Source of the DNA: Halarcobacter sp. | GTDB taxonomy: Bacteria > Campylobacterota > Campylobacteria > Campylobacterales > Arcobacteraceae | DNA: 64,000 bases | Assembly (NCBI RefSeq): GCF_963675975.1 | Contig: NZ_OY780939.1 | Coordinates: 1,488,001-1,552,000, forward strand | Direction of reading: 5' to 3' | In this document: positions 53,577 through 64,000 of the stretch, one piece after another | Layout: each line of letters opens with the position of its first letter | Numbering within the stretch: the first letter of the stretch is position 1 | Made by a program: the position numbers and the translations under genes | The notes under the pieces: model-generated | What the model saw: only the letters and a program-made list of their open reading frames with translations | Told to the model about the DNA's origin: nothing | Database searches by the model: none

Positions 53577-54731
53577 TTATTTTTCTAAGAGATGTTCATA
53601 TCTTTTATCAGTTAAAAGCTTCATAAATGCAACTAGTGCATCTACTTTTCTATCATTTTGTTTATTAGCTTTTAATTCATCTAAAGATATTGTTTCCTTA
53701 ACTTCAGGCTTTGCCCATGGTTTTCCAGTTTCTGGATTAATTTTTCTATCTTGATTATTATATTTATCATAAAACTCTACAACTGTTCTTAAATCTTTGA
53801 AAACCCCATTATGCATATATGGTGCAGTTACAGCAACATTCCTAAGTGTTGGAACTTTATATTTTCCTTTTTGATTCTCATCTGTAACATTTGGATTTGC
53901 TAATAAGCCATTATCAGTAGCTTTTACACCATTTTTCGCTCTTAAATCTGGATTTGCAGGTACTCCAATATTATGATATTCATAATTTGTAAATGTTTCA
54001 CCTTTTTTATCTTCACCTTTTAAAACATGACAAGTTGCACAAGAGTTATTGTTATTAGAGAAAAATAGTGATCTTCCTAAATCTTCTAAAGGTGTTAAAT
54101 CATATTTTCCTTCTAAATATCTGTCATATTTAGAATCAAAAGGTGCAAACTCTTTTGTCATCTCAAATTTTTCTATTGAATCTGTCATGGCAAAATAAGC
54201 TTTTTCATCAGATTTAAATATATCATCTCCATAAATAGCTTTTAAAGTTTTCACATAATATGGGTTTTCTTTTAGTCTTTCAACAACACTTTTTTTATCA
54301 GGCATTCCCATTTCAATAGGATTAAGTGGCGGTCCACCTGCTTGTCCTGCTAGGGTTGCTTCTCTACCATCCCAAAATTGTCCACCAATATATTTTTTAT
54401 TTTTTTCATCATAATGAAACTTTGGACTAAACATAGCATATGCTGCACTTGGTGCTTGTCTATCACCTAAAGATTTTCCATCATCACCCATTGATGCCAT
54501 TTTATTAACTGTATTATCCCTATCATCTGTAAAACCATGTTCAGGATTATGACAAGTTGAGCATGATTGAGTTCTATTTTTAGATAGATTCTTATCAAAA
54601 AATAGCACCTGACCTAATTGTTCTTTATCTTTAATTTTTTTTGCTATATTTTCTTTTGTAGGTGCTGTATTTGTACATCCACTAAAAAATATAATTGCAA
54701 TAATAACACTATAAAATTTTAAATTTTTCAT
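53577..54731 (-). CDS. Di-haem cytochrome c peroxidase / MauG-like lipoprotein
   Basis: 384 aa. Lipobox FSGC near residue 19 anchors it in the envelope. Two c-haem sites: CSTCH near residue 57 and CATCH near residue 232, and the VPTLRNVAVTAPYMHNG stretch that ends this family's second haem domain. It may reduce peroxide or oxidise a protein or metal substrate. Last gene of a five-gene operon with two imelysins and another di-haem protein, pointing to iron handling at the cell surface. Its start overlaps the preceding stop. Confidence 0.88.
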   Translation of the reverse strand: MKNLKFYSVIIAIIFFSGCTNTAPTKENIAKKIKDKEQLGQVLFFDKNLSKNRTQSCSTCHNPEHGFTDDRDNTVNKMASMGDDGKSLGDRQAPSAAYAMFSPKFHYDEKNKKYIGGQFWDGREATLAGQAGGPPLNPIEMGMPDKKSVVERLKENPYYVKTLKAIYGDDIFKSDEKAYFAMTDSIEKFEMTKEFAPFDSKYDRYLEGKYDLTPLEDLGRSLFFSNNNNSCATCHVLKGEDKKGETFTNYEYHNIGVPANPDLRAKNGVKATDNGLLANPNVTDENQKGKYKVPTLRNVAVTAPYMHNGVFKDLRTVVEFYDKYNNQDRKINPETGKPWAKPEVKETISLDELKANKQNDRKVDALVAFMKLLTDKRYEHLLEK

Positions 54732-55633
54732 TAACTTCTCCTTCTTAATAAATTAATAAATGGATAAACTATTATATTTGTAATAGATTTATAATTATTC
54801 ATTTGTTCTTTTCTTAATCCAAATTTTAAAACCTTTACCTCTTTTGAAAGAGTTAAAGATCCAAATAGTCTGTCCCAAACAGCTAAGTAACTTCCATAGT
54901 TTTTATCAAAATATTTTTTGCTATGGTGTATTTGGTGCTGTTTTGGTGAAATAAACCATTTTTCAATCCATTCAAAATAAGCAAAAGGTATATGAGAATG
55001 TCTTAGGTTTGAACCAAAAAGTGAAAATACAAAGATAAATATATTTGCACCTAAAACTTCATATAATCCAACCTTTGAACCAAAGAAATATATAAATACA
55101 CCAGTAACTAATCCAATACTTAATGAATATCTAAATCCAAAAAGAATATTTTCTACAGGGTGTACCCTATAAAAAGTTAAAGGGTTTAATACTTTTGCAC
55201 TATGGTGAACTTTGTGAAATTCCCATAAAATTGGAATAGTATGCAAGAACCTATGTATCCAGTATCTAGTAAAATCACTTACAACAAATAAAGTAATAGT
55301 ATATAAAGCGATTGTAGTCTCATAAGAAACATCTTGTATTTGGTTAAAGCCAAAATTGTAATACAGATGTTTATTTACCCACAAAGCTACAGTTTTTGCA
55401 CTAATTACTATTGGAATAATCAATAACATTTTTATAAAATACGACAAAATAAAATAGTAATAATCAAGTTTTGAACTTGGATGTAACCAAAGTTTAGAAC
55501 TAAAAGCTATTTTTCTATATCTTTTATTAAAATAAATAAATATTATCCCAATTGCAATTGAAGATGCAAGATATATCCAGTATGTACGTCTTCCTGGATC
55601 TATCAAATACTCTAATACTAAAAAATTATCCAT
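54731..55633 (-). CDS. Sterol desaturase/fatty acid hydroxylase-superfamily membrane protein
   Basis: 300 aa with about four membrane segments. The di-iron histidine boxes are present: HRFLH, HKVHH and HQIHH in order. These are integral membrane oxygenases that hydroxylate or desaturate lipids. The placing among imelysin and di-haem genes is unusual; since this enzyme uses non-haem iron it may depend on, or modify lipid for, the envelope iron system. Substrate unknown. Confidence 0.85.
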   Translation of the reverse strand: MDNFLVLEYLIDPGRRTYWIYLASSIAIGIIFIYFNKRYRKIAFSSKLWLHPSSKLDYYYFILSYFIKMLLIIPIVISAKTVALWVNKHLYYNFGFNQIQDVSYETTIALYTITLFVVSDFTRYWIHRFLHTIPILWEFHKVHHSAKVLNPLTFYRVHPVENILFGFRYSLSIGLVTGVFIYFFGSKVGLYEVLGANIFIFVFSLFGSNLRHSHIPFAYFEWIEKWFISPKQHQIHHSKKYFDKNYGSYLAVWDRLFGSLTLSKEVKVLKFGLRKEQMNNYKSITNIIVYPFINLLRRRS

Positions 55634-55643
55634 CTAATACCTT

Positions 55644-56630
55644 CTAGTCTCCATCTGCCTCAATAATTTTTGCATTTATTGATAACTCTTCAATAATCTC
55701 TAAAAATAAAATTACGTGAATATTACTAACCTCTTCATACAAATCTTGTGTCTTTAATAGATTGTCATCTTCAATCTCTTTTGCAAGTTCTAATGATTTG
55801 TCAATAGATTCTCTTAAATCCTCAACCAATGAACCATCAGTTATTTCTAATAAGTAATCTCCATAATCTTTATAATCTTTATTATTAAAAATATTTTTAT
55901 ATGTTAAAAGTATTGCTTCAATTGCATTTGAACTATTTTTACTTATCACATATTCAGCTCTATTATTATCAGGTTTACCTTCATATTTTTTAGTTTCCCC
56001 AATAATATCCCCAATACGCCACTCTTTTAGTTTATAAGTACTTTGAATTAAAGTATTAATAGTGATTGAATTAGCCTTTTTTATATCAGATAAAAAATTC
56101 TTTTCTTGTGCTTTGTACTCTTCATCTATTTCAGATAATAAACTTTCAATTTTTGTAATAATCGCTATTGCAAATTTATTTACTCTATCATCTTTAATAT
56201 CTTTTTTAGATATTACATATTCAAGTGCATTAATAGATTTTAAAGAGTTTTTAAAAAGTGCAATTCTAACTTCATCTTCACTTTTTATTGCTCTATCTAA
56301 TTGTGCTGTAATATCCTCATTTATATTATGAAAAACATCAAGATATCTTGGAGTATCAATAAAATCTTCATTTATATCGCCCAACAAATAAAATGCCTGA
56401 ACACTTTTCCATGACCTTACAAGATTTGTAAAATCCTCTTTACTTTTTTTAGCATTTTTTTCTAATACAGATTTTTTTAAAGCATCAATATCATCTAAGG
56501 CTTTATTCGTATTTTTTAGAATAACCTTTTCATACAGATTTTTTAAAGTCTCTTTATTATCACTTGTATCATCTGCATAAGATAGCAGTGTTAAAAGTGA
56601 TACAACTAAAAAATATTTTAATAGTTTCAT
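55644..56630 (-). CDS. Imelysin-like periplasmic protein
   Basis: 328 aa with a signal peptide (about 1-19, ending LSYADD). Two helical-bundle halves; the first has RSWKSVQAFYLLGDIN and the SINALEYVI segment that corresponds to the imelysin core, although the GxHxxE metal motif is not kept (residues read SINALEY). Imelysins are Fur-regulated iron-related envelope proteins of uncertain mechanism. Starts right after the di-haem oxidase. Confidence 0.75.
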   Translation of the reverse strand: MKLLKYFLVVSLLTLLSYADDTSDNKETLKNLYEKVILKNTNKALDDIDALKKSVLEKNAKKSKEDFTNLVRSWKSVQAFYLLGDINEDFIDTPRYLDVFHNINEDITAQLDRAIKSEDEVRIALFKNSLKSINALEYVISKKDIKDDRVNKFAIAIITKIESLLSEIDEEYKAQEKNFLSDIKKANSITINTLIQSTYKLKEWRIGDIIGETKKYEGKPDNNRAEYVISKNSSNAIEAILLTYKNIFNNKDYKDYGDYLLEITDGSLVEDLRESIDKSLELAKEIEDDNLLKTQDLYEEVSNIHVILFLEIIEELSINAKIIEADGD

Positions 56631-56631
56631 T

Positions 56632-58029
56632 TTATACCTCTTCTAAAAACTTAAGTAGTTTTTCTCTTTTTTCTTTTTCAAGACTCATAAATGTTTCTTT
56701 TACATTTTGAGCTTCACCACCATGCCAAAGAATAGCTTCTTGGAAATCTCTTGCTCTTCCATCATGGAGTAGCCTTGGATTTTTACCATTTATTCTCTTA
56801 TGTAATGCTAATCCCCATAATGGTGGAGTTCTCCATTCTCTTCCTGTTGCTTTGAATTCACTTCTTCCATCAGCTAGACCCTCTCCCATATCATGAAGTA
56901 GCATATTTGTAAAGGGTGCAATTTTTATACCTGACTTAGTTACAAAAGATTCAATATGACATTTATTACAACCTATTTGTTTAAATATTTCAATACCCTC
57001 TTTATATGTCTGAGTATTTTTATTTGCTGTATAGGTTTTTCTTTTTTTAAGATAAAAAGCCATAGCTTCCAATCTCATATCAGTAATATCAAGAGCATCT
57101 CTTGCTTTTGGGGCATTATTACATGCCTCTTGTTGTTTTGTACAGTTTTCATTTGGATAATAAGTTGTAGTTAAACCCATATCATTGTTTGCTGCATCAG
57201 CTGTTTGATGTATTATAGAAGTTGTTGTTGCTTTCCAACTATATTTTCCAAGTTCAATTTTTTTTGTTATTGGTGAATATACATAATTAGCACGTCCTGA
57301 TATTCCATCATTATCTCTATCAAATTCATCTTCATTTTTTAAAATATCTTCATTTGAAATATCGCTTAATAATCCTAATCCATTTAGGGTTGGAGCAATT
57401 CTAAAAGTTAGAACAGAATCTTTATGTAAAGGACCATATTGTAACTCTTTTAAAGCATAGTTAGGTTCAAGTATTATATCAATCTCTCCATCTGGGAAAG
57501 TGATTTTCTTTTCTTTATAAGTTATATCAGTTTTAGCTTCAAATTTAACTCCATGGTTAGCATTTAGAGCAATTTGTGCACCATATATTGGTTCAGGAAT
57601 TAAACCTTTTGTTTCTAAGATAGTTTTATCTTTTTTCTTATTTTCTAAAGATACTTTAGGAATTAAACTTCTCGAAAAATCACCATTACTATTATATAAA
57701 GTTCCTCTACCATTTGATGGATGACAACTAGCACAGGTATTAGCATTAAATAAAGGTCCAAGACCATCCCTAGCAGTTGTAGCACTTGGCGCTTCAACCC
57801 ATGGAATTCTAAAAAAACTCTTTCCTAAAATAAATTTATCATACTCTTCATCACTTAAGCCATTTACAGGTTTTAGAAGTAAAGACTTATTTTTTTCACT
57901 TGATAAATCTTTGCCCAAACCATTAACGGCAAAAAGCCCTGTAGTAAAAATTACTACAAGGCTTTTTGTTAATATTGTTTTGAAGAGTTTTAAATTATAG
58001 TTTTGTCTCTTCTGGATCTGTAACATCAT
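56632..58029 (-). CDS. Di-haem oxidoreductase (DUF1111 / COG3488 type)
   Basis: 465 aa. Signal-type hydrophobic start (about 16-40), CASCH near residue 102 and CNKCH near residue 355, plus the TPPLWGLALHKR and LLHDGRARDFQEAILWHGGEA stretches of the 'CxxC' thiol-oxidoreductase/DUF1111 family. The arrangement imelysin - DUF1111 - imelysin is recurrent in Proteobacteria and is iron-repressed in Pseudomonas. The start overlaps the upstream imelysin by 35 bp with poor ribosome-binding site, so it is probably translationally coupled. Confidence 0.85.
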   Translation of the reverse strand: MMLQIQKRQNYNLKLFKTILTKSLVVIFTTGLFAVNGLGKDLSSEKNKSLLLKPVNGLSDEEYDKFILGKSFFRIPWVEAPSATTARDGLGPLFNANTCASCHPSNGRGTLYNSNGDFSRSLIPKVSLENKKKDKTILETKGLIPEPIYGAQIALNANHGVKFEAKTDITYKEKKITFPDGEIDIILEPNYALKELQYGPLHKDSVLTFRIAPTLNGLGLLSDISNEDILKNEDEFDRDNDGISGRANYVYSPITKKIELGKYSWKATTTSIIHQTADAANNDMGLTTTYYPNENCTKQQEACNNAPKARDALDITDMRLEAMAFYLKKRKTYTANKNTQTYKEGIEIFKQIGCNKCHIESFVTKSGIKIAPFTNMLLHDMGEGLADGRSEFKATGREWRTPPLWGLALHKRINGKNPRLLHDGRARDFQEAILWHGGEAQNVKETFMSLEKEKREKLLKFLEEV

Positions 58030-59338
58030 CAGTACTTAATGAAATTCCATTTGCAGTTGCAACAGTTACCATTGCATCACCTAATTTTCTCATCTCATTT
58101 TTAAGTTTTACAATAACTTTTGCTTGAGGGTTATCTGGTTGAATTTGGTAATCAAAGTGCTCTTTTGTATTAGCAACTTCATTTATACTAGCAATTTTTT
58201 CTTCAATTGATTTCATAAGTGCAACAATATTAGCTTTGTCTTCTTTTGAAACAGCATCTAATAAAGATGGTCCAAATGATTTTCCATTATAAGTTGAAGT
58301 TAAAGCATTTCTAAACCCTAAGTAGTTAGTTACGATATCTCTGTGTGTATTATCAGAAAAGCAAGAGTGTTCATCTTCTTCTGATGGAGTTAATACTGCA
58401 ACAGCAATTCTTTCATTTGCAAGTTCAGATTTAATAAATACACCCATTCCAGCAATTACTTGTTTTAATGCTGTATTTGAAGTGATATTTTTAGATGCAT
58501 CAGCACCTGTTAATTTTCCTAAGAATGCATTTTTATAAAGTCCATCATCAGCCCAAGCATTTGCAACTACTTCTAAATCAGAAACAATTTTTTTAGCTGA
58601 AGCTTTTAAATAAGCAAGTCTTCTTTGTGCATTTTTATCTGTTGTAAAATCTGATAAAGGTCTTTGTCCAGCTGTAAGTGGTCCACTTGTAATTGAATCT
58701 TTTACAAAGTTAGAGTAGTCTTGATCTTGTCCCCATAATAAAAATTCAACTGCATGATAACCTGTAGAAACATTTGCTTCACCACCATTTTCATTTAAAG
58801 CAGTAATAGCATCAACTGTAATTGTAGAAACATCTACACTACTTGATTCTTCTCCACCTGGGTTAAACTCTCCTGCTGTATCAATAATATTTCCTGATGT
58901 TTTTTTACCATCAGCATCAATTGTATAGTCAATCATATTTTCATCTAATGGCCAAGCATTAATTTGCCCTTCAAGTGCACCATAAGTATCAGCTACCCAA
59001 CCTTCTTCTGCATCAATTGGTCCATTAGAAAGTCTGAAAATTTCAGTTTGCCCATATGACTCTCTTGAGTTTAACCAAGCTTTTTTAGCTTCTTCTAATG
59101 TAGCTTCAGTTGGATTTTTAACAAATTTTTCAATTGCAACTTCTAAAGATTTTGCATCTTTTAGTGCATCATTATAGTTTGTTTGAGCAATTTTTGCATA
59201 CGCTGCAAGTATCTTCTCAGCTTTTTTATCTACTTTAACTGTGTTAACAGTAGTGTTTTCTGAACTTGCTGTACAACCAGCAAATACTAGAGCTGCTGCT
59301 ACACTTACTGATGCTGCAATTAATCTTGTTTTCTTCAT
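57995..59338 (-). CDS. Imelysin-family lipoprotein
   Basis: 447 aa. Signal with lipobox FAGC (Cys near residue 21); helical domain with the imelysin motif GYHAVEFLLWGQD (GxHxxE), an EEGWVADTYG segment, and a second half-repeat near the C-terminus. It may bind iron or haem at the outer surface of the periplasm. First gene of the five-gene operon, with a Fur-like palindrome about 110 bp upstream. Confidence 0.88.
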   Translation of the reverse strand: MKKTRLIAASVSVAAALVFAGCTASSENTTVNTVKVDKKAEKILAAYAKIAQTNYNDALKDAKSLEVAIEKFVKNPTEATLEEAKKAWLNSRESYGQTEIFRLSNGPIDAEEGWVADTYGALEGQINAWPLDENMIDYTIDADGKKTSGNIIDTAGEFNPGGEESSSVDVSTITVDAITALNENGGEANVSTGYHAVEFLLWGQDQDYSNFVKDSITSGPLTAGQRPLSDFTTDKNAQRRLAYLKASAKKIVSDLEVVANAWADDGLYKNAFLGKLTGADASKNITSNTALKQVIAGMGVFIKSELANERIAVAVLTPSEEDEHSCFSDNTHRDIVTNYLGFRNALTSTYNGKSFGPSLLDAVSKEDKANIVALMKSIEEKIASINEVANTKEHFDYQIQPDNPQAKVIVKLKNEMRKLGDAMVTVATANGISLSTDDVTDPEETKL

Positions 59339-59449
59339 ATATGTATCCTTTATTAATTTCGTGGGAAAATGATATTATAGTTATTTTAATAATTAATATC
59401 ATTAATGTAATGAATTGTAATATCAATTAACTTAACAAATACTTAATAT

Positions 59450-59464
59450 TAATAATGGTTATCA
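59450..59464. promoter_or_regulatory. Fur-box-like palindrome 3 (imelysin side)
   Basis: TAATAATGGTTATCA, 12 of 14 arm positions of the Fur 7-1-7 consensus, in the divergent region between the imelysin operon and the P-type ATPase operon. Confidence 0.45.
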
Positions 59465-59518: not shown

Positions 59519-59533
59519 TGATAATAATTATTA
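59519..59533. promoter_or_regulatory. Fur-box-like palindrome 4 over the ATPase-cluster promoter
   Basis: TGATAATAATTATTA, 13 of 14 arm positions, directly after a TATACT -10 (59510-59515), so it would cover the transcription start. Confidence 0.55.
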
Positions 59534-59605: not shown

Positions 59606-61759
59606 ATGAAAAATGAAATAGTAATTAAAAGTATTGCAAACAATAGAGTTAGACTAAAATCAGATATATTTGCTTTAAATTCAAATCTAGAAAAAATAGA
59701 AAAAGAGTTTGAATCAATATTTACTTCTTTTAGAAAAAATATTTCATGTAAATCTATTGTTTTTACTTACTCATTAAATGTTACGCTTGATGAGATAATT
59801 GATAAGATGAATAATATATTCAATATATCTTTATCTGTCCCTGCAAGTAATGCACTTTGTGAAAACAAAAGTTGTAACAGTTGTAATATAAAAAAACATG
59901 ATGAAAAATCTTGGAGAAGAAAAGTATTTGAATTTGTTTTATTAAGTGGATATGCGGCATATATTTTTATAAGTGAAAATATTCTAGGTCTTACTATTGC
60001 TGCAACACCATTTAGTCTAGTTGGGCTTGTTTCTATAGTTGCTGCAATTCCTTTATTAAAAGAATCCTATGAAGATATAAAACAGAAAAAATTTACTCTA
60101 CACACTTTTATGAGTAGTACCCTTATATTAGCGATCTTATTTGGAGAAGCTACTGCTGCTTTTGAAATAATATATATATTAAGAGGTGGTATGCTACTTG
60201 AGGAATATATTGCAAATAAATCAAGGGAAGAGATTCAAAGTTTAGTTGAACTTGATATTAAAAAAGTATATGTTTTAGTTGATGGTGTTGAGATAGAAAC
60301 TAATATTGAAGATATAAAAGATGGCGATATCGTTGTTAGTAGAAGTGGTGAAAAGATTCCAGTAGATGGCGTAATAGAAGAGGGTAGTGCAGAGATAAAT
60401 GAAGCTTTAATAAATGGAAGAAGTGAACCAGACTTTAAGGTTGTTGGAAATGAAGTATTTGCTGGAACTGTTTGTGAAAGAGGAAGAATCTACATAAAAG
60501 TTACTGCACTTGGAAATGATACTTATATCTCAAGAACTATGAGAGAAGTTGAGTTTTCATTACTTCAAAAATCACCAAGTGAAGTTGAAGCAGATAGATT
60601 AGCAAATAAGTTACTTAAATTAGGAACTTTACTAACTGCTGGAACTTTCTTTTTAACAGGTTCTTTTACAGCTGCATTTTCAACTATGATTGTTATGTCT
60701 TGTCCATGTGCAACTGTTTTAGCAGCTTCAACTGCAATTAGTGGTGGTATTTCAAATGGAGCAAAACAAGGTATTCTAATAAAAGGTGGAGAAGCTTTAG
60801 AAAATGTAGGGAAAAGTGAAGTGTTCTGTTTTGATAAAACAGGGACTTTAACTACAGGAAAACCTGTAATAAGTGATGTTTTACTTTTTAGTGATATTAG
60901 TGAAAATGAATTAATCTCATATGCTGCAATGGCAGAATACAGAAACTCACATCCAATTGCAACATCTATTGTCAAAAGTGCAAAAGATAGAGGAATAGAT
61001 ATAAATCAAGAGATATTAAGTGAAATAATTCCAGGATTTGGAGTAAAGTCTAAAATTGATGATAAAAGATTACTTATAGGAAATAAAGCTTTATTATCTA
61101 AATATAAAGTATCAACAAAAGAGTATAAACATGAAATATCTACACATCTAAATAATGGTAAAACTGTAGTTTTAGTTGCATTGGAAGATGAAGTTTTAGG
61201 TCTTTTAGCTTTTACACATGAAGTTAGACCTGGTACTAAAGAGATGGTTGAGAGTTTAAGGCATAGAGGTGTAAAACATATTGCTTTATTAACAGGAGAT
61301 GAGGTAAAGGTTGCAAATAGTTTTGCACTTGATTTTGGATTTGACTCTGTTTTTGCAAATCAAACACCTCAAGGAAAAGCTGATGCAATTGAAGAGTTAA
61401 AAAGAAAATATGATAAAGTAGTTATGGTTGGAGATGGTGTAAATGACACATTTGCTATGAGTAAAGCTGATGTTGCTATATCTTTTGCAGCAGGTGGAAG
61501 TGAAGCTGCAATAGCAGTTTCTGATATTGCTATTACCCACTCTCATCCTGAAGATGTTATAAATTTATATGATTTAAGTAAAAAAAGTTTAAATGTTGTA
61601 AATCAAAACTATTATATTGGTACTGGAACAAACCTTATGGGAGTAGCTTTATCTGCAGTTGGTAGATTGACTCCTGTTGGCGCAGGACTAATTCATATTG
61701 GTCATACAGTAGGAATAATGGCTAATTCATCTAGACTAGCTATTGATAATAATTCTTGA
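59606..61759 (+). CDS. Heavy-metal P1B-type ATPase, ferrosome (FezB)-like
   Basis: 717 aa. Residues 1-75 form an HMA-like fold without CxxC but with an NNRVRLKS strand; a Cys cluster (Cys85, 90, 93) follows. Membrane helices start near residue 105. The ion-path motif is SCPC (Cys366-Pro-Cys368), the phosphorylated Asp is Asp410 in DKTGT, the SHP His is 449, and GDGVND is near 610. The C-terminus ends in the NLMGVALSAVGRL...IHIGHTVGIMANSSRL pattern of ATPases found in iron-organelle clusters. Neighbours (HMA-like protein, ferritin-like protein, Gly-rich membrane peptides) argue for iron loading rather than copper export, but the CPC motif alone does not tell the metal. Confidence 0.85.
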   Translation: MKNEIVIKSIANNRVRLKSDIFALNSNLEKIEKEFESIFTSFRKNISCKSIVFTYSLNVTLDEIIDKMNNIFNISLSVPASNALCENKSCNSCNIKKHDEKSWRRKVFEFVLLSGYAAYIFISENILGLTIAATPFSLVGLVSIVAAIPLLKESYEDIKQKKFTLHTFMSSTLILAILFGEATAAFEIIYILRGGMLLEEYIANKSREEIQSLVELDIKKVYVLVDGVEIETNIEDIKDGDIVVSRSGEKIPVDGVIEEGSAEINEALINGRSEPDFKVVGNEVFAGTVCERGRIYIKVTALGNDTYISRTMREVEFSLLQKSPSEVEADRLANKLLKLGTLLTAGTFFLTGSFTAAFSTMIVMSCPCATVLAASTAISGGISNGAKQGILIKGGEALENVGKSEVFCFDKTGTLTTGKPVISDVLLFSDISENELISYAAMAEYRNSHPIATSIVKSAKDRGIDINQEILSEIIPGFGVKSKIDDKRLLIGNKALLSKYKVSTKEYKHEISTHLNNGKTVVLVALEDEVLGLLAFTHEVRPGTKEMVESLRHRGVKHIALLTGDEVKVANSFALDFGFDSVFANQTPQGKADAIEELKRKYDKVVMVGDGVNDTFAMSKADVAISFAAGGSEAAIAVSDIAITHSHPEDVINLYDLSKKSLNVVNQNYYIGTGTNLMGVALSAVGRLTPVGAGLIHIGHTVGIMANSSRLAIDNNS

Positions 61760-61820
61760 TTTATATTAAGCTAAAATTAAAATAATTATACAATAATTAG
61801 GTTACTAAAAGGATACATGT

Positions 61821-62135
61821 TTGATAACAGTTGATAAATTAATAGAAATTGGTTCATATTTAACTTTAATTCATCATATAAAAGGAAGAATAAGAGTTAG
61901 AGTAAGTCCAAAAATAAAAGAACAAAGTGGAAATATCTCTTTAGAAGATATTGAGGATATTCCTAATAAAATAAATGGTATAAAAAAAATTAAAATAAAT
62001 AAAGTAATAGGTTCTATTACTATTGAATATGATAATTCAATTTTTCCAGATAAATTATGGAAAGATATGATAAATCAAGAAAACCTTGAAGAGATAGCTG
62101 AAATTTTAAATAAACTAACAAAAGAGGTAGTATAA
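61821..62135 (+). CDS. Small HMA-like domain protein
   Basis: 104 aa. An alpha/beta ferredoxin-like pattern (GRIRVRVSPK strand near residue 20; KINGIKKIKINKVIGSITIEYD strands and helix) as in heavy-metal-associated domains, but with no Cys at all. The basic R-x-R strand is shared with the ATPase N-terminus and the last gene. Start is TTG with AAAAGGA seven bases upstream; the nearby ATG 61817 is out of frame and meets a stop. Its stop abuts the ferritin-like gene. Confidence 0.7.
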   Translation: MITVDKLIEIGSYLTLIHHIKGRIRVRVSPKIKEQSGNISLEDIEDIPNKINGIKKIKINKVIGSITIEYDNSIFPDKLWKDMINQENLEEIAEILNKLTKEVV

Positions 62136-62912
62136 ATGGAAGAAAACCAAGATGCACAAACAGTTGTAGAAGAAAATCTACCTACTTCAAATTTTGACCA
62201 AGATTTATTAGATGGATTAAGGGTAAATCCAAATTATAATGAGCCAATCTTACATCAAATACTAAGAATAGCAGTTTATGATGAGTATCATGCTTATGAA
62301 AACTATAGAGTTATAGTTGAAAAATTTGGAAGTGAAACTCCTTTTATAAATATTTTACAAGCTGAAATAAATCATTATGAAGAGCTAACTGTATTATTAA
62401 ATAAATATCAAGTACCAGCTCCATTAAATGATTGGGTTATTAAAGTTGAAACACCTAACTCAATTTTAGAAGCAGCTGAAATAGGTGTAGCTGAAGAGAT
62501 TGATAATATTAAAATGTATGATAATTTAATTACATATGCAAAAGAGTATCCAGATGTATTAGATTTATTATATAGACTACAAGCAGCTTCTTATAACAAT
62601 CATCTTCCTGCTTTAAGACAAGCTGTTGCAAAACATTCCAATCTGAATGTAAATGAAGTAGATATAAATGCAGTACATCAAGAAAATAGTATCCATAATA
62701 TAGATGAAGCTATAAATAAAATGGATGAGATTAGTGCTATGGCATCTAAGTTTGCTTCAGGAAATGTAAGTCAAGAAGATATTTTAAAACTATTAAGTAG
62801 TTCAAATGTTTCATTTTTAGGTGGAGCTTTATTAGGTGCTGTTGGAGCAGGAGTTTTTTCACAAGTAACAAAAGATAAAAAAGAAGATACTAAAGAAGAA
62901 GAGGAGGTTTAA
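62136..62912 (+). CDS. Ferritin-like (DUF2202-type) protein with C-terminal membrane segment
   Basis: 258 aa. Four-helix bundle about 45-185 with metal-ligand patterns DEYHAYENY, EINHYEEL, VAEEIDNIKMYDNL and AASYNNHLPAL, similar to DUF2202/rubrerythrin-type ferritin-like proteins that hold a di-iron site. After a linker comes a Gly/Ala-rich hydrophobic stretch (FLGGALLGAVGAGVF, about 230-246) and an acidic tail. A ferritin-like domain tied to a membrane segment would place iron oxidation or storage at a membrane, as expected for an iron organelle. Confidence 0.75.
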   Translation: MEENQDAQTVVEENLPTSNFDQDLLDGLRVNPNYNEPILHQILRIAVYDEYHAYENYRVIVEKFGSETPFINILQAEINHYEELTVLLNKYQVPAPLNDWVIKVETPNSILEAAEIGVAEEIDNIKMYDNLITYAKEYPDVLDLLYRLQAASYNNHLPALRQAVAKHSNLNVNEVDINAVHQENSIHNIDEAINKMDEISAMASKFASGNVSQEDILKLLSSSNVSFLGGALLGAVGAGVFSQVTKDKKEDTKEEEEV

Positions 62913-62913
62913 T

Positions 62914-63006
62914 ATGCCATTTATACCTTTTGCACTTGGTGCACTTATTGGTGGGTCAGTAGTTGTGTTGTTTTCAAAAAATAAAAAAACTAAAAAGGAG
63001 AAATAA
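62914..63006 (+). CDS. 30-residue Gly-rich membrane peptide
   Basis: A complete small gene missed by length filters: ATG after GAGGAGG, one hydrophobic stretch (IPFALGALIGGSVVVLF), a Lys-rich tail and stop. Its stop overlaps the next ATG (TAATG). Too short for a family call; the GxxxGG pattern matches the membrane segments of its neighbours. Confidence 0.65.
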   Translation: MPFIPFALGALIGGSVVVLFSKNKKTKKEK

Positions 63007-63257
63007 TGTTACCTTTCATTGCAGGAGTTGCAGCGGGTGCTGTTGCCGTTGTTGCTTATAACAATAACAAAGAGATAAGAGATGGTGTTAAAACTGGAGC
63101 AAAAAAAGCAAAACAATTTGCAGAAGAGGGATTTGAAAAAACTAAAGAACTTACTAAAGATGTAAAAGCAACTGTAAGTGAAAAAGTAGAAACTCTAAAA
63201 TCAAAGAAAAAAGAAGAGATAACAGAAGAAAAAGGAGAAGTAGTTAATGGCAACTAA
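63006..63257 (+). CDS. Small Gly/Ala membrane protein with YtxH-like helical tail
   Basis: 83 aa: N-terminal membrane segment (FIAGVAAGAVAVVAY, residues 4-18) then a Lys/Glu-rich amphipathic helix (about 22-75). The layout resembles YtxH-type proteins. AAAGGAG precedes the ATG; it overlaps both neighbours by a few bases. Confidence 0.7.
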   Translation: MLPFIAGVAAGAVAVVAYNNNKEIRDGVKTGAKKAKQFAEEGFEKTKELTKDVKATVSEKVETLKSKKKEEITEEKGEVVNGN

Positions 63258-63603
63258 TTTAGCAATTGACACAGGTGCACCAAGAAATGTTACAGGACAT
63301 GTAGTAAGTGGTTCACTTGCAGCTGGAGCTTTAGCAGCAGGAATAAATTATAATAAATATAAAAAGGGTCAAATTGGAAAAAATGAGGCTATCCAAGACT
63401 CATTAAAACTTTCAATTCAAGGTGGAATTGTTACAGGAAGTTCTATTGCAGCTGCTAATTATGTTGGGGAAGGAAGTTATATGAAAATGTTAACTGCTCT
63501 ATCTCTTGGTATGGCAGGAGTTTATGCTGTAGAGAAAATCAATGAAAAGTTTACACCTAAACACATGCCAGAAGAGATTATTGAAGAAGAGGAAGAAAAA
63601 TAA
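63247..63603 (+). CDS. Gly-rich membrane protein
   Basis: 118 aa with three short Gly/Ala-rich hydrophobic segments (about 19-33, 57-75 and 78-95) and an acidic Glu-rich tail. Begins inside the end of the previous gene (11-bp overlap, AAAGGAG upstream) and its stop touches the next start (TAATG). Similar in build, not clearly in sequence, to the small membrane proteins of magnetosome or ferrosome clusters. Function unknown. Confidence 0.65.
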   Translation: MATNLAIDTGAPRNVTGHVVSGSLAAGALAAGINYNKYKKGQIGKNEAIQDSLKLSIQGGIVTGSSIAAANYVGEGSYMKMLTALSLGMAGVYAVEKINEKFTPKHMPEEIIEEEEEK

Positions 63604-63941
63604 TGGTTGATAATACAAATAATACAATAAATGCAAATCCTTATATAAATCAAACAGCTCAAACAGCAAATACTCAACAAGCACAAGATGTTAATTTAGT
63701 TAATCAAAATCCATATATTGATAATACTGCAAATAGTAGTTTATTAGGTTCTTTTGATACAAATAAATTTTTAATGGGTGCTGTTGTTGGAGCTGTTGGG
63801 GCATATATCTTAACAAATGAAAATGCACAAAAAGCGATTTTTAAAACAATTGCAAAAGGGAGTACTTTATTTAGTGCTGGTATTGAAGAGATGAAAGAAA
63901 GATTTGAAGATGCAAAAGCTGAAATGGAAGCACAAGAATAA
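63603..63941 (+). CDS. Asn/Gln-rich protein with Gly membrane segment
   Basis: 112 aa: an Asn/Gln/Thr-rich, low-complexity N-terminus (about 1-50, NP-Y-I repeated twice), then a Gly/Ala-rich membrane segment (FLMGAVVGAVGAYIL, about 56-70) and an amphipathic Glu/Lys helix. The segment MGAVVGAVGAYI closely resembles the tail of the ferritin-like protein. Low-complexity N-terminus could mediate self-assembly. Confidence 0.65.
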   Translation: MVDNTNNTINANPYINQTAQTANTQQAQDVNLVNQNPYIDNTANSSLLGSFDTNKFLMGAVVGAVGAYILTNENAQKAIFKTIAKGSTLFSAGIEEMKERFEDAKAEMEAQE

Positions 63942-63949
63942 GAGATAAA

Positions 63950-64000
63950 ATGGCTCAAAATAATATAAAACTTTTACACAAAACTCAAAAAAGAGTTAGA
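63950..64000 (+). CDS. Start of a further cluster gene, cut by window edge
   Basis: 17 codons from an ATG after AAGAGAT, in frame to the window edge: MAQNNIKLLHKTQKRVR. The HKTQKRVR stretch resembles the HHIKGRIRVRV strand of the 104-aa HMA-like protein, so another HMA-like member is likely. Confidence 0.5.
   Translation, partial: MAQNNIKLLHKTQKRVR

Follow-up and report, generated by a model that had tools for sequence, protein, structure and literature searches.

The DNA stretch analysed here, called the window, comprises 64,000 nucleotides of the Halarcobacter sp. contig NZ_OY780939.1, and its end carries a gene cluster that we consider a probable ferrosome-type (fez) iron-storage locus. 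Eight consecutive plus-strand open reading frames (ORFs) run from position 59606 to the window end at 64000, with intergenic gaps of at most 61 bp and several overlaps, as a first-pass annotation made from the letters alone had described. Reading the genome beyond the window confirmed that the cluster continues, as that annotation had anticipated, through the P1B ATPase ATP2 (703 amino acids, aa) to p98 (98 aa).

The first gene, ATP1 (59606–61759), encodes a P1B ATPase of 717 aa with SCPC in the fourth transmembrane segment (TM4), DKTGT, HIGHT near the C-terminus and a CxxC linker. It is followed by a Cys-free HMA_2-domain protein of 104 aa with a TTG start (HMA2, 61821–62135; PF19991, E 7e-10) and by FTN (62136–62912), a ferritin-like DUF2202 protein of 258 aa with a GxxxG membrane tail, recognized by domain, structure model and motif. 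Small membrane proteins carrying the FxxGxxxG motif are encoded by p30 (62914–63006, 30 aa), a putative anchor identified by ORF, motif and synteny and present in those clusters of the genus that carry ATP1, and by p83 (63006–63257, 83 aa) and p112 (63603–63941, 112 aa), which are YtxH-like as judged by domain, motif and synteny; in the domain search, this likeness was below the cut-off for p83 and fainter still for p112. Between the latter two lies p118 (63247–63603, 118 aa), a membrane protein that resembles MamC in a model match and was also modelled structurally. The sequence at 63950, previously taken as another HMA-like start, indeed opens ATP2 (63950–64000, continuing to window-equivalent position 66061; L005:5451-7562), whose N-terminus is an HMA_2 domain and which contains DYSCALKLATP, with SCA replacing CPC, and HNGTT. 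The last gene, p98, occupies window-equivalent positions 66080–66376 (L005:7581-7877) on the same strand.

The two P1B ATPases and the conserved gene order

Both ATP1 and ATP2 were identified as heavy-metal P-type ATPases in the domain search. In a tree of 48 rows, ATP2 falls inside a 20-row clade (support 100/99) with the ATPases of Rhodopseudomonas clusters of HMA2 and small-protein genes, and ATP1 forms its own clade (100/100) on a long stem (1.67). A larger group (96/98) joins the ATP1 clade, FezB-like rows and the row of a PacL-linked Rhodococcus ATPase. This tree points to ATP2, not the in-window ATP1, as the counterpart of FezB. The fez reading of the first-pass annotation is supported, with the FezB counterpart corrected from ATP1 to ATP2.

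ATP1 was found in 18 of the 397 sampled genomes of the phylum (threshold E <= 1e-130), and all 18 copies precede ATP2 by approximately 4.0–4.4 kb in the same orientation, which argues that ATP1 is a cluster-bound, putatively accessory second pump present in a minority of clusters. The 10 ATP1-bearing loci that were read fully show the order ATP1-HMA2-FTN-p83-p118-p112-ATP2-p98, and no close relative of ATP1 was found on plasmids. The linker after the HMA-like domain contains CxxC in 15/15 ATP1 sequences and 21/48 ATP2 sequences; in ATP1, it is mostly part of a larger Cys cluster.

The CPC motif and the CxxC linker of ATP1, together with copA and copZ genes located 129 bp downstream of p98 in this genome, would also fit a copper/zinc resistance island, in which ATP1 and CopA-CopZ export soft metals with the help of the small proteins. 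However, Escherichia coli CopA (P1B-1) and ZntA (P1B-2) sit elsewhere in the tree, apart from both ATPases, and neither ATP1 nor ATP2 reached the CopA or ZntA equivalog cut-off in the model search. In addition, ATP1 occurs only with ATP2, most relatives have no copA or copZ next to the cluster, and iron genes surround it. On the basis of the tree and the synteny, we rejected copper/zinc resistance as the main explanation and regard it as very improbable.

In 30 Campylobacterota loci we again find the order HMA2-FTN-p83-p118-p112-ATP2, mostly followed by p98, and the sole locus without ATP2 among those with enough context (L064) is ended by a contig end. Most or all genes are kept in 18 further Campylobacterota loci, except for two of the same family (L202 and L203), which are without FTN and p98. 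This recurrence is far beyond chance, and the synteny search that the first-pass annotation had suggested is answered by these 30 loci and most of the 18. ATP2 orthologues (threshold E <= 1e-120) were detected in 135 of the 397 sampled genomes, representing 28 of 68 genera. The cluster also occurs on two Arcobacter plasmids, where the annotation of its genes goes no further than hypothetical, DUF2202, YtxH and heavy-metal ATPase; one of these copies is adjoined by TonB receptors and ChaN. Such relatives accord with a position of the window in Campylobacterota, probably close to Arcobacteraceae.

Named genomes were also scanned for the pattern [QL][AVI]DY[SA]C[AP][LV]K, which gave 428 relatives, of which the best 80 were kept. 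These 80 include Rhodopseudomonas sp. BR0M22, Azospirillum, Magnetospirillum, Rhodoblastus, Aeromonas, Aromatoleum and Thauera; almost all of them show HMA2-, p118- and p112-like neighbours arranged as in Campylobacterota, and many Betaproteobacteria among them also bear a ferritin-like gene. Homologues of p83, p118 and p112 thus adjoin the ATPase in both Campylobacterota and Proteobacteria, and small proteins stand beside homologous ATPases almost everywhere we looked, Rhodopseudomonas included.

The six fez genes RPA2333-2338 of Rhodopseudomonas palustris make ferrosomes (PMC12016538), and rpa2333-2338 are down-regulated alongside iron genes in low light (PMC6879726). The Rhodopseudomonas cluster recovered here likewise consists of six genes with the ATPase last, and its match to RPA2333-2338 of strain CGA009 is one of gene count and order, of minus-strand orientation and of place on the map (2.55 Mb of 5.27 Mb, in genome G066). 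ATPases of the ATP2 kind in Rhodopseudomonas are of two types, both inside the ATP2 clade. The R. palustris-type clusters (L086 and L189) have in common with that of Halarcobacter an SCA ATPase of the same clade as ATP2, an identical arrangement of the HMA2, p83-, p118- and p112-like genes ahead of it, and a gene for a di-His hairpin (FezC-like). In contrast, in Campylobacterota the ferritin-like gene is added, the FezC-like gene comes last and lacks an HMA domain, p118 has a MamC-like loop, and some lineages also carry ATP1. In Rhodopseudomonas genome G067 (L188), the cluster is of a second type, with FeoB-like and p98-like genes next to it.

Iron genes and Fur-like sites around the cluster

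The 267-bp gap upstream of ATP1, which the cluster shares with a divergent imelysin gene on the minus strand (57995–59338, Pfam), contains three of the six Fur-like sites in the window. These three are on the plus strand, at 59387–59401 and 59450–59464 (two mismatches each to TGATAATNATTATCA) and at 59519–59533 (one mismatch). The scan used a 15-bp 7-1-7 pattern, which is informative against shuffled sequences, for which 2.66 sites are expected per whole window; a 19-bp Fur consensus did not stand out from background in DNA as AT-rich as this.

Among the 30 Campylobacterota loci, a Fur-family gene lies directly upstream in 11, a divergent feoB in 3 and a divergent imelysin gene in 4, including the present genome. 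Pfam confirmed four of the Fur neighbours, two of the FeoB neighbours and the imelysins. The Halarcobacter genome encodes five Fur-family proteins, and none of their genes adjoins the cluster. From the Fur-like sites and the adjoining Fur genes of relatives, Fur control of the cluster is predicted.

In single-ATPase loci (approximately 18; most of L038-L064), a conserved element, approximately TGATA[AG]TGA-N10-TTTATAATAAG, lies upstream of HMA2; it might combine a binding site for the adjacent Fur-family regulator with a -10 box. On the minus strand of the window, positions 53577–59338 encode two imelysin-domain proteins and a di-haem oxidoreductase-like protein (Pfam), as well as a sterol-desaturase-like membrane protein and a cytochrome c peroxidase-like protein recognized by eye; this divergent set is probably also iron-related.

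The ferritin-like protein, its membrane anchor and the other membrane proteins

For FTN, the relatives exceed the Pfam cut-off for DUF2202. The structure model is confident at approximately residues 30–170 and poor in the tail. When compared with bacterioferritin, FtnA and the DPS-like PA4880, it gave VIA Z values of 16-17.6, with which Foldseek concurs; helical bundles generally score high in this comparison, and the rows matched by FTN are ferritins and their close kin. Of the ligand residues, E50, H80, E121 and H156 are conserved in 29-30 of 30 sequences and E77 in 28 of 30, in the pattern E, ExxH, E, H, with the usual helix-D Glu replaced by Tyr in the sequences read. By the model and the ligands, FTN has the ferritin four-helix fold with a di-iron ligand pattern from which one usual Glu is missing. 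FTN shares the fold and the E, ExxH, E, H pattern with bacterioferritin and FtnA, but differs from them in its membrane tail, in the Tyr at the helix-D position, and in lying always within the cluster in the genomes searched. A separate, ordinary ferritin is encoded elsewhere in this genome.

FTN was present in 30 of 60 relatives; the Campylobacterota clusters regularly include it, and so does a sizeable share of those found in Betaproteobacteria. The first-pass annotation had taken the ferritin-like member as a feature of a variant form; it is not peculiar to this genome. We claim no priority for ferrosome loci in Campylobacterota or for ferritin-like ferrosome members.

In the tail of FTN, G230 and G234 are invariant, and GxxxG is found in 45/46 sequences and the strict FxxGxxxG in 21/46. 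The FxxGxxxG motif is present in p30 (4/4), p83 (43/47) and p112 (45/47), as compared with a background of 0.01 per 60 residues in the other ORFs of the window, and it also holds in the proteobacterial clusters. In PacL proteins, GxxG plays such an anchoring part (PMC13043812). By analogy, FTN and the scaffold proteins may be drawn to a common membrane by one type of helix-packing anchor.

PacL proteins pair their N-terminal GxxG helix with P-ATPases and cluster CtpC/CtpG (PMC13043812), which raises the alternative of an effluxosome-like platform, in which GxxxG small proteins would hold the ATPases together within the cytoplasmic membrane and excess Fe2+ (or Zn/Mn) would be exported to the periplasm with no internal compartment. 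The PacL-type helix beside P-ATPases, the inclusion of ATP1, ATP2 and the PacL-linked Rhodococcus ATPase in one tree group, and the YtxH-like small proteins are all consistent with such a platform, and the PacL/Ctp effluxosome of Mycobacterium tuberculosis likewise has Gly-motif small membrane proteins beside P1B ATPases. However, PacL is a DUF1490 protein, and the domain search found none among the cluster genes; the Mycobacterium system handles Zn/Cd/Cu and has no ferritin, cytochrome or iron context. Conversely, ATP2 is nearest to the ATPases of Rhodopseudomonas, a ferrosome genus, the ferritin and the FezC-like cytochrome fit storage better than export, and the neighbourhood is one of iron uptake (Fur, FeoB, TonB and imelysin). 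We therefore consider an export platform unlikely.

For p118, the match to the MamC model (E = 4.6e-8) scored 33 bits against a cut-off of 100, which makes p118 a distant MamC homologue but not a member of the family. The model was matched by 23 of 25 Campylobacterota p118 proteins, and by none of the proteobacterial homologues at E 0.01 in a 38-member set, in which only the p118 of the window itself matched. In reverse, among the ORFs of the two loci concerned, the p118 hidden Markov model (HMM) found MamC of Paramagnetospirillum caucaseum (E 1.7e-11) and of Magnetospirillum sp. SS-4 (E 6.9e-11), whereas the p83, p112 and p98 HMMs gave no match to these MamC proteins.

MamC Glu66 and Asp70 have been tied to magnetite (PMC6584501). 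We take the MamC loop E-A-A-I-D to hold these two residues; it aligns with E47-A-I-Q-D51 of p118, which is, like MamC, a two-segment membrane protein. Across p118 sequences, the first of the two places is acidic in 29/47 and the second in 25/47, and this partial conservation offers a lead for MamC-like mineral binding rather than proof of it. In the structure model, p118 folds into three helices and the loop is a short turn, and no relative was found among solved structures.

The reciprocal similarity and the aligned magnetite-binding loop could also be read as a magnetosome remnant or precursor that forms a magnetic mineral by means of p118 and the pumps. However, the cluster showed no further magnetosome gene, the MamC model found nothing else of note in this genome, and Paramagnetospirillum caucaseum keeps its true MamC separate from its fez-type cluster, so that this explanation is barely credible. 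The latter species (strain SO-1; L077 and L208) is magnetotactic and has a fez-type cluster and a true MamC in one genome.

For p98, HHalign to the first gene of the Rhodopseudomonas-type cluster gave a probability of 95.8% (E 8e-9). Both His residues are kept, with spacing equal to that in the Rhodopseudomonas-type gene. FezC itself is a haem-binding cytochrome of DUF4405-like type (PMC10979944), for which two such His are to be expected. This comparison suggests that p98 is a FezC-like di-His cytochrome.

A proposed ferrosome variant and its spread

We propose, with a probability of roughly 0.7, that the cluster is a Fur-controlled iron-storage locus of the ferrosome (fez) type, in a variant form belonging to Campylobacterota. 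The ferrosome-like assignment of the first-pass annotation is supported, with organelle formation as its putative part; neither of the two outcomes that it had named as refuting, an ATPase grouping with copper or zinc exporters and a lack of the small proteins beside homologous ATPases, was observed. In the scheme that we infer, including its metal, compartment and every step, Fur repression would be lifted in low iron, and the GxxxG-anchored p30, p83 and p112 would gather to form a membrane patch or vesicle, into which the FezB-like ATP2 would pump cytosolic Fe2+. The FezC-like p98 would move electrons across the membrane for iron redox, and FTN, held on the same membrane by the same anchor type, would bind or oxidise iron at the surface and pass it on. 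The MamC-like p118 may seed or hold mineral. Here and in a minority of relatives, the CPC-type ATP1 might be a second pump that supplies this compartment, either with a different metal or under different conditions.

Several points weigh against this proposal. Fe2+ as the transported metal is itself something that we infer, and the related PacL/Ctp sets of small proteins and P-ATPases are efflux platforms without an organelle. An ATPase of the ATP2 kind was found in only 5 of 16 Rhodopseudomonas genomes, and the DUF4405 match of p98 is sub-threshold. In addition, the likeness of the cluster to the experimentally tested systems (FezA/FezB/FezC) is drawn from genomic arrangement for R. palustris CGA009 and from published descriptions for Desulfovibrio magneticus and Clostridioides difficile. 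By description, C. difficile FezA/FezB and D. magneticus FezA-C have, as here, a P1B ATPase with one or more small membrane proteins and a FezC-type cytochrome, and are under Fur control, which is predicted for the present cluster; the texts consulted on these systems mention no ferritin-like or MamC-like member.

Few species are so far known to form ferrosomes. If the proposal is true, a conserved and testable ferrosome version is present in approximately one-third of the sampled genomes of the phylum, ferritin and ferrosome storage are joined in one operon, and ferrosome and magnetosome proteins are linked in sequence. The fixed gene set would make the role of each ferrosome protein accessible to single-gene deletion. 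More tentatively, and with less than even confidence, hybrid ferrosomes may be widespread in Campylobacterota, with a surface-tethered ferritin, MamC-like mineral seeding and, in some lineages, two P1B pumps per compartment, in which case ferrosomes and magnetosomes would be linked via a shared mineral-binding protein family.

In five loci (L045, L046, L047, L198 and L199), p98 is longer (approximately 208-226 aa) and has an extra soluble part, which this genome is without. Relatives of the ATPase were not found on viral contigs in scans that included one with a query only approximating a Vibrio sequence. On the 133-kb Arcobacter plasmids p133 (L065 and L069), complete clusters lie near an integrase and a HipA-type toxin gene; L069 additionally has a Tn3 transposase nearby, and its ATP2 frame is split into two pieces. 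These neighbours suggest that the cluster can move between strains.

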